The position numbers and the translations under genes were made by a program. From NCBI GenBank assembly GCA_012719455.1, contig JAAYAJ010000023.1:1-33044 (forward strand): a DNA stretch of 33,044 nucleotides. The letters run 5' to 3'. The notes under the pieces are model-generated. The model searched no databases. It was not told where the DNA came from and worked only from the letters and a program-made list of their open reading frames with translations. Numbering within the stretch: the stretch's first letter is position 1; the number at the start of each line of letters is the position of its first letter. Of the stretch, positions 1-33,044 are shown piece after piece. This stretch comes from Acidobacteriota bacterium (GTDB lineage Bacteria; Acidobacteriota; UBA6911).

Positions 1-8
1 CAGCCAGA

Positions 9-24
9 TTGGCATACTATTTGC
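9..24 (+). promoter_or_regulatory. sigma-54 (-24/-12) promoter for the PEP-CTERM gene
   Basis: The sequence TTGGCATACTATTTGC matches the sigma-54 pattern YTGGCAC-N5-TTGC, with the invariant GG (11-12) and GC (23-24) exactly ten bases apart. It ends 34 bases before the ATG at 59, leaving room for a start site near 36 and the Shine-Dalgarno GGGAGGG. PEP-CTERM genes are known to be often driven by sigma-54 with the PrsK/PrsR pair in other bacteria. Upstream activator sites would lie outside the window. Confidence 0.75.
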
Positions 25-58
25 CTATTAATAGATAGACACAGAAAGGGAGGGTTCC

Positions 59-712
59 ATGAAGCGTTTTTATGGTTTGCTTTTTGCTTGTTTGTTGCTG
101 GCGTTGCCTTTGACCGCCAATGCAGGTCCATTCTATTTTGGTTCAGGGACAATCAACGCTGCCGGCAGTTCGCCGACTGAATACAACCCCGGTGACGGAC
201 GAACATATTATTTGGATTACGATGGCAGTGTAACTATCGATGATTTTGAACCCGTCATTAACATCACCGATGCAGAACTCTTTTGCGTATCCGGCGTGAC
301 TTTGGATAGGAATAAACCGGACTATCTGTTTTACCAATTCGAAGATTACGAAAGAGCGGATTTTGCGAAGGCCACCTGGGTCGCTGACAACTGGACGACT
401 TTCATCACGGACAACCTAAGCCAGGACGTGAAAAAGGGTGAAGCCCAAAAGGCCATTTGGGCAATCATGGGAGTAATGAATATACTCGGTAACGACGGCT
501 GGGATCTCAGCCTTTTCAATGCCGCGTCCGCTACCCATGTAACCACAAATTGGCTTTGGGCAGAGAGCGTTCAAGGCTTAAGCCAGGATTTCCTGGTTCC
601 ATACGAATATCAGCTTCCCGGGGGTGATCTGCCCGAGGTTCCCGAGCCAAGCACGTTGATATTGCTGGGGTTGGGGCTGACCGGTATCGCTCTTTACAAA
701 AAGAAAAGATAA
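59..712 (+). CDS. PEP-CTERM sorted secreted protein with thioester-domain-like core
   Basis: A 217-aa protein exported and handed to the exosortase/PEP-CTERM sorting machinery. Visible parts: signal peptide (residues 1-22, hydrophobic run ending TANA), a globular middle, and a C-terminal tripartite sorting signal: VPEPST at about 194-199, a hydrophobic helix LILLGLGLTGIAL, and basic tail YKKKR. In the middle, FCV (Cys76) and AQKAIW (Gln130) resemble the paired Cys and Gln motifs of surface thioester domains, with an aromatic/Ala-rich ATWVADNW stretch between them; the thioester itself is inference. The start is set by GGGAGGG a few bases upstream. It has its own sigma-54-type promoter and terminator, so it is monocistronic. 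GC is lower than in the genes that follow. No exosortase gene is in the window. Confidence 0.9.
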   Translation: MKRFYGLLFACLLLALPLTANAGPFYFGSGTINAAGSSPTEYNPGDGRTYYLDYDGSVTIDDFEPVINITDAELFCVSGVTLDRNKPDYLFYQFEDYERADFAKATWVADNWTTFITDNLSQDVKKGEAQKAIWAIMGVMNILGNDGWDLSLFNAASATHVTTNWLWAESVQGLSQDFLVPYEYQLPGGDLPEVPEPSTLILLGLGLTGIALYKKKR

Positions 713-731
713 CCGGAACAGATTTCTTTCC

Positions 732-768
732 AAAAAAGCAGGATCGCTCGTTGATCCTGCTTTTTTTT
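732..768 (+). terminator. Rho-independent terminator of the PEP-CTERM gene
   Basis: An 8-bp perfect stem GCAGGATC/GATCCTGC (738-745 with 753-760) and a 7-base loop is followed by eight T (761-768); six A precede the stem, so it would also work in the opposite direction. It sits 20 bases after the stop codon. Confidence 0.92.
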
Positions 769-1633
769 GCCTGGAGCCAAATCCTGGACACCCACCTTTT
801 GTGGTCGCGATCGCAATCGGGAGCCCGCTGGAAACCCGGGCGACGGCCGTGACCATGGAAGCATCATCGCAGGGATGGAACGGGAAACAATCCGATCCAT
901 CCCGCAGGCATTGTAATGCACACACAATAATCCCACGGCCGAATCGCACACGGCGCGGCATCCCCCAGGCTTCGGGCACGGCGGCAGGCTACTCCACGGG
1001 TCTCTCCTTACGGCCGGTGATGGCGCCGGATCTTCCCTCTTCGTATTGGAGCCAAGAGTGTTTCGAGCGCAGGCTCCGGGAATCAGGGGGCTACAAAGAG
1101 GCCGGCTGATCGACATCCCGGGGTATTGACGCGGAGCCTTTTTATTGTTATCTAATCACTTCGCCCCAGCGCGGGCGGAGAGTTTTGCGCACATCCCGAG
1201 GGCCCTCCAAGGAACGAACAAGGAACAAATGAGGCGTGGCGGATCCGCCCGGCCCCCAATCCCCCGGACCAGATGGAAGACAGATTGCGGAGGGATGGGA
1301 AGAGCGAACGATTGTTTGGATTAGCCGTCCCGGGCGCAGGGCGCACGGGACGATGACGCCGTCGGCTGCGATGCCAGCGCCGACGCGCGCATGGAAACAT
1401 TGGCAGTCGTTTCAAAGCGGAGCATCTTGCCGGCGGCCTGATGTCGGCTCCGGTCCCCGGGCAACGGGGCCTCTGGAACGTTAAGGATTCAGGATTGACG
1501 GATCGAAGATATCGGGGGATGTGTGCCCGGGCCGGCAGGCTCCGGGCGCAGCCCGCCGGGGTTCGACCGCCTCCCTCCTCGACTGGTCCTGCCTTGAAAC
1601 CGCTGCCTCAAGCACGGAAGGACCCTGCAACTC
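769..1633. other. Long GC-rich intergenic region, no convincing gene
   Basis: Some 865 bases between the PEP-CTERM terminator and the MFS transporter. Open frames here on both strands give Arg/Pro/Ser-rich translations with no recognisable fold and lack good ribosome binding sites. Composition jumps from AT-rich to strongly GC-rich at about 790. The only signal I can support is a sigma-70-like promoter at 1126-1154; the 470 or so bases between it and the MFS start include a short inverted repeat (CGTCCCG at about 1338 with CGGGACG at about 1358) and may be an untranslated leader. Confidence 0.5.
1126..1154 (+). promoter_or_regulatory. Sigma-70-type promoter upstream of MFS transporter
   Basis: TTGACG (1126-1131), a 17-base spacer and TATCTA (1149-1154) form a near-consensus -35/-10 pair in an AT-rich patch of an otherwise very GC-rich region. 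The next plus-strand gene begins at 1634, implying a leader of about 470 bases if this is its promoter. Confidence 0.5.
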
Positions 1634-7562: not shown

Positions 7563-7591
7563 AAAAACACTCGGAATGTAAATTATTCCGA
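7563..7591 (-). terminator. Probable terminator of the peptidase-ArsC unit
   Basis: A 7-bp stem TCGGAAT/ATTCCGA (7571-7577 with 7585-7591) lies 20 bases beyond the stop of the ArsC-like gene; read on the minus strand it is followed by GTGTTTTTG, giving a short T run. Stem GC content is modest, hence moderate confidence. Confidence 0.5.
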
Positions 7592-7611
7592 CACCCTGGC
7601 GCCTTCGCGGC

Positions 7612-31983: not shown

Positions 31984-33044
31984 TCAATATTCGATCTTGA
32001 GGGCTTTCATCTTCCGGTACAGGGTGCTGGGGTCGATCCCCAGCTGGGCCGCCGTCCTGCGCCGGGAGCCGCGGTGGCGCCTGAGCGCCGCGCTGATCAT
32101 CAGCTTTTCCATCGCCTTGAGCGACATGGGATTGCCGCCGTCCGGGGGCGCGGGCCGGAGTTCGGCCGGCAGGTGGTGGAGTTCGATCATGCGTCCGCGG
32201 CAGAGAACGAACGCCTGTTCGAGGATGTTCTCCAGCTCGCGCACGTTCCCCGGGTATTCGTATTCCATGAGCCGGGCCATGACCTCTTCGGACACCCCCT
32301 CGATCTCCCGCCCCTGGATCCGGTTGAATTTCCCCACCAGGTGCTCGACGAGCAACGGGATGTCCTCGCGCCGCTGGCTGAGGCTGGGGAGACGCAGGCT
32401 GACCACGTGCACCCGGTAGTAGAGATCTTCGCGGAACACCCCGTCCCGGACCAGTTGGCCGAGATCGCGGTGGGTGGCGGCCACCACGCGCACGTCGACC
32501 TTCATCGGTTCCACCGAGCCCAGGGGCTCGATCGTGCGCTCCTGCAGCACCCGCAGCAGCCGGACCTGCATCGCCGGCGAGACGTCGCCGATTTCGTCCA
32601 GGAAGATGGTGCCGCCGCTGGCCAGGGCGAAACGCCCCGGCTTGTCGCGCCGGGCGTCGGTAAAGGCCCCCGCCTTGTGGCCGAACAGCTCGCTCTCGAG
32701 CAGGGTGTCGGGGAGCGCGCCGCAATTGACGGTGACGAAGGGCTTGCTCCTGCGCGGTGACAGGTGGTGAATGGCGCGGGCGAACAGTTCCTTCCCGGTC
32801 CCGCTCGCCCCCTCGATCAGCACGGTGCTGGTACTGGCGGCGATCTGAGGCAGGAGCTCGAACAGCTTCTTCATGGGGGCGCTGTACCCGACGATGTCCT
32901 CGAAGGTATAGCGCGCCTTCAGCTCCTTCTGCAGCTGCTCGATGGAGCTGAGGTCCTGGAAGGTCTCCACCCCCCCGATCACCTCCCCGTCGTTGTCCCG
33001 GAGCAGGGCGGTGGAGATGCGGATGGGGATGCTCTCCCCGCTGC
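31984..33044 (-). CDS. Sigma-54-dependent transcriptional activator (5' end outside window)
   Basis: The last 352 codons of a Fis-type enhancer-binding protein; the frame stays open to the window edge, so the N-terminus is missing. The visible start is the end of a PAS-like domain (SIPIRISTALLRDNDGEVIGG). The AAA+ domain follows: Walker A GASGTGKELFARA, the sigma-54 contact loop reading GAFTDA instead of the usual GAFTGA, Walker B GTIFLDEIGDV, and arginine-finger region with YPGNVRELENIL. The Fis-like helix-turn-helix is RRRTAAQLGIDPSTLYRKMK at the end. Whether a REC domain lies before the PAS cannot be seen. It may serve the kinase three genes away or the PEP-CTERM promoter elsewhere (both inference). 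Confidence 0.92.
   Translation of the reverse strand, partial: SGESIPIRISTALLRDNDGEVIGGVETFQDLSSIEQLQKELKARYTFEDIVGYSAPMKKLFELLPQIAASTSTVLIEGASGTGKELFARAIHHLSPRRSKPFVTVNCGALPDTLLESELFGHKAGAFTDARRDKPGRFALASGGTIFLDEIGDVSPAMQVRLLRVLQERTIEPLGSVEPMKVDVRVVAATHRDLGQLVRDGVFREDLYYRVHVVSLRLPSLSQRREDIPLLVEHLVGKFNRIQGREIEGVSEEVMARLMEYEYPGNVRELENILEQAFVLCRGRMIELHHLPAELRPAPPDGGNPMSLKAMEKLMISAALRRHRGSRRRTAAQLGIDPSTLYRKMKALKIEY

Follow-up and report, generated by a model that had tools for sequence, protein, structure and literature searches.

Proteobacterial PEP-CTERM genes are preceded by an upstream element (motif 1), which is followed by a sigma-54 motif (motif 2), and both motifs were found only in Proteobacteria (Haft et al. 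2006; PMC1569441). Motif 1 is 17 nt long and terminates in TTTACA (PMC1569441). The spacer between motif 1 and motif 2 measures 62.8 ± 10.6 nt, with a range of 32–92 nt (PMC1569441). The gene pepA of Aquincola tertiaricarbonis RN12 has a −24/−12 promoter with a mapped transcription start, depends on rpoN1, and possesses a predicted upstream enhancer (Xia et al. 2023; PMC9850573). Natural sigma-54 enhancers are also known from the LuxO-qrr system of Vibrio, where the loop lengths cluster in steps of ~11 bp (PMC4740811).

Here we analyze a DNA stretch of 33,044 nucleotides from an Acidobacteriota bacterium (the whole stretch is referred to as the window), which contains a PEP-CTERM gene preceded by a −24/−12 element at its very start. 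Based on sequence comparisons within the source genome, its family and its phylum, we consider it highly probable that this element is a working sigma-54 promoter under the control of PrsK/PrsR, which would fire a scattered set of PEP-CTERM genes whose products are processed by XrtA.

The PEP-CTERM gene of the window and its predicted promoter

The open reading frame at window positions 59–712 (+) encodes a PEP-CTERM exosortase-substrate protein of 217 amino acids with an N-terminal signal peptide. It matched PF07589 (29.5 bits; cut-off 20.7) as well as TIGR02595, and the profile matches place the PEP-CTERM sorting signal VPEPSTLILLGLGLTGIALYKKKR at 638–709 (+). The open reading frame is followed by a predicted intrinsic terminator at 732–768 (+), which consists of a hairpin at 732–766 with the GC-rich core GCAGGATC/GATCCTGC and a T run (−19.4 kcal/mol and z = −6.35 for the folded RNA of positions 728–768). 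Because of this strong terminator, the gene forms a single-gene unit. No Pfam domain was found in the mature part of the protein, and a structure predicted from one sequence was uninformative (pLDDT 32.7). The window protein (residues 75–134) has the pattern FC...Q-x-A-[IM]-W in common with the proteins at G007:C59:38872, G008:C140:5208 and G010:C310:1136, and none of these proteins had a Pfam match in this part. We take the pattern to resemble the Cys-Gln signature present in thioester-domain adhesins from Gram-positive bacteria. A literature search found no paper on a thioester adhesin handled by an exosortase, and this combination would be worth testing.

An earlier note on this DNA had claimed a near-consensus sigma-54 promoter at the PEP-CTERM gene, and the element is indeed well placed and directly visible. 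In window positions 9–24 (TTGGCATACTATTTGC), GG at 11–12 and GC at 23–24 are separated by ten bases. The 16-mer TGGCATACTATTTGCC at 10–25 (+) differs from the pattern TGGCAYRNNNNTTGCW by one mismatch, which is the last base (C for A/T), and the GG-N10-GC core thus lies in the TGGCAY...TTGCW context except for this base. The ATG at position 59 is located 33 nt downstream of the element and is preceded by the Shine-Dalgarno sequence GGGAGGG at 48–54 (+; direct reading). The transcription start is predicted at position 36 (+), 12 nt past the −12 GC, from sigma-54 geometry only. The site at 10–25 was the only match with at most one mismatch to TGGCAYRNNNNTTGCW across the whole window. Shuffled windows contained 0.52 such sites on average, with at least one site in 37 of 100 shuffles, and the motif taken alone is no more than expected by chance and not significant. 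No sigma-70-like promoter was found in the region upstream of the gene.

The promoter sits at the very edge of contig C103, at whose end the window starts. Contig C102 overlaps exactly with window positions 1–127, and its reverse complement provides the upstream DNA, which is therefore a second contig joined via a 127-base overlap and not part of one contig. A second PEP-CTERM gene, which is cut at the start of contig C101, likewise overlaps contig C107 by 127 bases. Both joins are supported by the operator of the right type (see below) that they reveal above each gene. Two of the five PEP-CTERM genes in the genome are broken by contig ends within or just before the signal-peptide codons (C101:1/C107:1 and C103:1/C102:1), and these loci may reflect strain variation or an alternative join. 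The sequence CCAAATCCTGGAM occurs at window positions 777–789 and at C102:298–310, in opposite senses of the contigs and in the same sense of the joined sequence. It flanks the window PEP-CTERM gene on both sides and was absent from every other fetched locus. The two copies could delimit an inserted segment, an origin that would agree with the lower G+C content of the window PEP-CTERM stretch.

Sigma-54 sites and upstream operators in the source genome

The source genome (2.79 Mb in 107 contigs) contains five PEP-CTERM genes above the cut-off. All five possess a sigma-54 site with at most one mismatch on the right strand and within 100 bp of the start codon, namely TGGCATACTATTTGCC in the window, TGGCATTAATATTGCT on C107, TGGAACGCAGATTGCA on C28, TGGCATGCATTTTGCT on C39, and TGGCACGATCATTGCT at the C101 gene (reached through C107). 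Only 44 such sites were found on both strands of the entire genome (52 for the reversed pattern), and the chance of finding one at a given PEP-CTERM gene is ~8e-4. The stricter pattern TGGCACNNNNNTTGCW, which lacks the Y freedom, recovered just one of the five genes, and no such promoter site was found upstream of prsK in this genome. The earlier note had proposed to scan all PEP-CTERM genes of the genome for the motif and had named a lack of enrichment as refuting evidence; the complete set of five sites dispels this objection.

Farther upstream (70–310 bp), all five genes also carry the 17-bp element TGTCG-N6-TTTACA with at most one mismatch, of which 25 sites exist genome-wide. This operator and a sigma-54 site occur within 400 bp of each other at exactly five places in the genome, all of them at PEP-CTERM genes, compared to 0.13 places expected. 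An element with the length and the TTTACA end of motif 1 (at most one mismatch) is found above the sigma-54 site of each of these genes, in addition to its enrichment in the family (see below).

The best operator of the window gene, CGTCGGAAATCTTTACA, starts at −166, has one mismatch, and is separated from the promoter by a spacer of 149 nt, while a second, poor copy is located at −145 (spacer 128 nt). Both copies are ~3–4 bp off the favored helical phase described below. Among the five genes, that of the window is the weakest, with degenerate, off-phase operators and a promoter that lacks the final A/T. These weak and off-phase operators, together with the 37% of shuffled windows in which a one-mismatch site is expected, would also fit a scenario where the −24/−12 match of the window arose by chance and a sigma-70-type or unknown promoter drives the gene. 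We regard this as very improbable, because a site was present at five of five genes, co-occurred exclusively with the operator, and no sigma-70-like match was detected upstream. The window motif is thus very probably a real sigma-54 promoter, as judged from these sequence patterns.

An exact PrsR-type dyad (TGTCGGAATAATTTACA) was also observed at window positions 7577–7593 (−), where the 3′ ends of two convergent genes face each other. No sigma-54 site was found near this dyad, which may be a chance occurrence or a relic.

Distribution in the family and the phylum

Across 12 genomes of the same family, 37 of 94 PEP-CTERM genes had a sigma-54 site with at most one mismatch, including 17 exact matches, whereas the opposite strand and two reversed patterns each yielded no site. 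About half of the family PEP-CTERM genes had no recognizable sigma-54 site. In the family, the operator takes the form of a dyad, TGT[A/C][A/G]-N7-[T/C][T/G]ACA, of which 61 exact copies were detected above 46 sigma-54 genes (0.3 for permuted motifs). Such dyads were present above 38 of the 46 sigma-54 genes and above 11 of 44 other genes (p = 3e-8). In an unbiased 6-mer count above the family sigma-54 sites, TTTACA was the most enriched hexamer (41 of 46 vs. 15 of 44), and it agrees with the core of the proteobacterial motif 1.

Genome G012 had sites at six of ten genes, yet no PrsR above the cut-off was found in its fragmented assembly. In other acidobacterial families, the site rate was 6/16 in genomes with PrsR and 5/42 in genomes without PrsR (Fisher’s exact test; p = 0.036), which indicates a modest link between PrsR and the sites outside the family. 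Of the 396 genomes sampled from the phylum, 15 contain PrsR and 79 contain PEP-CTERM proteins, and the circuit therefore represents a minority arrangement in the Acidobacteriota. No PrsR above the cut-off was found in 66 of the 79 genomes with PEP-CTERM proteins. Hence, another mode of regulation must apply to these genes in the greater part of the phylum. Our literature search, which covered only a minority of subscription journals, found no report of a PrsR/sigma-54 PEP-CTERM circuit in the Acidobacteriota.

Enhancer layout and helical phasing

Half of the family sigma-54 genes possess two exact dyads, typically near −126 and −225 and 90–100 bp apart. Relative to the promoter, the operators start at −70, −93, −104, −115, −126, −137 and −147, and again at −191 to −240. 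For a set of 54 operators, which contained one gene per similarity cluster, the operator-promoter distances were phased with a Rayleigh Z of 19.4 at 11.15 bp (bootstrap 11.0–11.3), a value reached by none of 2000 jittered sets. The set is dominated by two genomes (G008 and G010), which were removed one at a time, and the phasing survived the omission of any single genome. When their distances were instead taken from the start codon, these operators were not phased (Z = 3.0). As the phasing refers to the promoter and not to the start codon, operator and promoter keep to a fixed helical face, which is a requirement for looping. A repeat of 11 bp is typical of bacterial DNA under negative supercoiling (PMC8501960). 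Between the two operators of a gene, phasing was not significant by itself, and periodic AT content in the loop region was weak (period 10.2, reached by 2.8% of the controls) and is not claimed here.

We regard the helical phasing as strong evolutionary evidence that operator and promoter cooperate through a DNA loop. We also lean toward the view that PrsR of this family acts via two distant dyad operators ~90–100 bp apart and in register with the sigma-54 promoter, so that natural variation among promoters would read out the in vivo helical repeat (11.1 bp) of an uncultured bacterium, a layout distinct from the usually single and close proteobacterial site.

Regulators and exosortase machinery

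The genome encodes RpoN at C80:36079–37461 (TIGR02395, 408.5 bits; cut-off 277.35). On contig C101, prsT, xrtA, prsR and prsK form one run beside a gene for an XrtA-system glycosyltransferase, and all products exceed the curated cut-offs: PrsR (C101:10474–11805) with 574.3 bits (TIGR02915; cut-off 502.6), PrsK with 341.8 bits (cut-off 300), XrtA with 225.4 bits (cut-off 208), PrsT with 594.4 bits (cut-off 312.2), and the glycosyltransferase (TIGR04063) with 547.5 bits (cut-off 442.05). The latter gene gives the prs/xrtA locus an exopolysaccharide-gene neighborhood. These acidobacterial proteins may already bear such labels in public annotations through curated models like TIGR02915.

The PrsR of the source genome is 93% identical to that of the Acidobacteria MAG isolate Zod_Metabat.919. 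In a phylogenetic tree, the acidobacterial PrsR sequences form one supported clade next to four sampled proteobacterial PrsR, and matches from Nitrospirota and Syntrophaceae were left unused as they group outside the PrsR clade. These relatives place the source organism, which the earlier note had merely suspected to be an acidobacterium, in the Acidobacteriota. Two prsR genes each were observed in the relatives G005, G008 and G010; those of G005 and G008 fall into two deep acidobacterial branches, and both copies of G010 belong to the same branch. The doubled genes hint at duplicated or acquired XrtA systems.

The sigma-54 activator that the earlier note had seen in the window (31984–33042) is an enhancer-binding protein, but it is not PrsR: it scored 305.9–307.4 bits against TIGR02915 (cut-off 502.6), and the true prsR lies on the other contig, C101. 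In total, 14 activator genes in the genome match the PrsR model at E ≤ 1e-60, and sigma-54-like sites also occur at some PEP-CTERM genes of Acidobacteriota that lack PrsR. Both observations would be compatible with a sigma-54-dependent promoter that is activated by another of these ~14 enhancer-binding proteins, such as the one encoded at 31984 onward. Against this stand three observations. Only one activator qualifies as PrsR by the curated cut-off, and its gene adjoins xrtA, prsK and prsT. In length and 3′ end, the operator agrees with the motif that accompanies PrsR in Proteobacteria. The same element also precedes the sigma-54 site of a single PEP-CTERM-like gene at the loci of Colwellia (by 79 bp) and of Magnetospirillum (by 70 bp). 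Activation by another enhancer-binding protein is therefore unlikely, and PrsR remains the favored activator.

Proposed circuit and comparison with known systems

In the proposed circuit, the membrane kinase PrsK would phosphorylate PrsR, which would then bind the 17-bp dyads about 50–300 bp upstream of its target promoters. The DNA would loop, the AAA+ domain of PrsR would open the complex of RpoN and polymerase, and a scattered set of single PEP-CTERM genes would be switched on. The exosortase XrtA would process their products, which would then reach the cell envelope or the exopolysaccharide matrix. The promoter and operator motifs, which co-occur exclusively at PEP-CTERM genes in the source genome, the full set of regulators and sortase, and the phasing in the family all point to such a circuit. 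The assignment of PrsR as the dyad-binding protein draws partly on the Aquincola work (PMC9850573), as do the presumed RpoN dependence and start site, and the products would presumably be sorted by XrtA. The window gene very probably belongs to an XrtA/PrsR regulon that exists in a second phylum and has a new enhancer layout. The sites at all five genes, together with rpoN, xrtA, prsK, prsR and prsT above their cut-offs, support the idea of the earlier note that the PEP-CTERM sigma-54/PrsK-PrsR wiring extends to another phylum.

A control circuit known for exosortase substrates of Proteobacteria would thus also operate in Acidobacteriota, and a tested sequence rule is now available for finding its targets. 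The data further show that a different enhancer layout can go with an unchanged protein machinery and operator sequence, and evidence for operator-promoter looping was obtained without any culture.

The closest described counterpart is the XrtA/EpsH system of Proteobacteria, which has the same sorting signal, exosortase, kinase, response regulator and TPR protein, and single genes with long upstream regions are common to both. The acidobacterial operator and motif 1 were compared by length and 3′ end; both are 17 nt long and end in TTTACA. The spacers differ: in 32 of 38 family genes, every operator copy lies beyond the 92 nt that limit the proteobacterial range, and, unlike in Proteobacteria, there are often two dyad copies, which are ~90–100 bp apart and helically phased with the promoter. 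This mismatch is a difference of layout, not of parts. Aquincola pepA is likewise a PEP-CTERM gene with a −24/−12 promoter, for which experimental data exist from a proteobacterium, whereas the acidobacterial circuit was deduced from sequence alone. The Vibrio LuxO-qrr enhancers share the steps of ~11 bp, but belong to another activator, phylum and target (small RNAs), and they feature a single tandem site near the promoter instead of the often two distant dyads of the Acidobacteriota.
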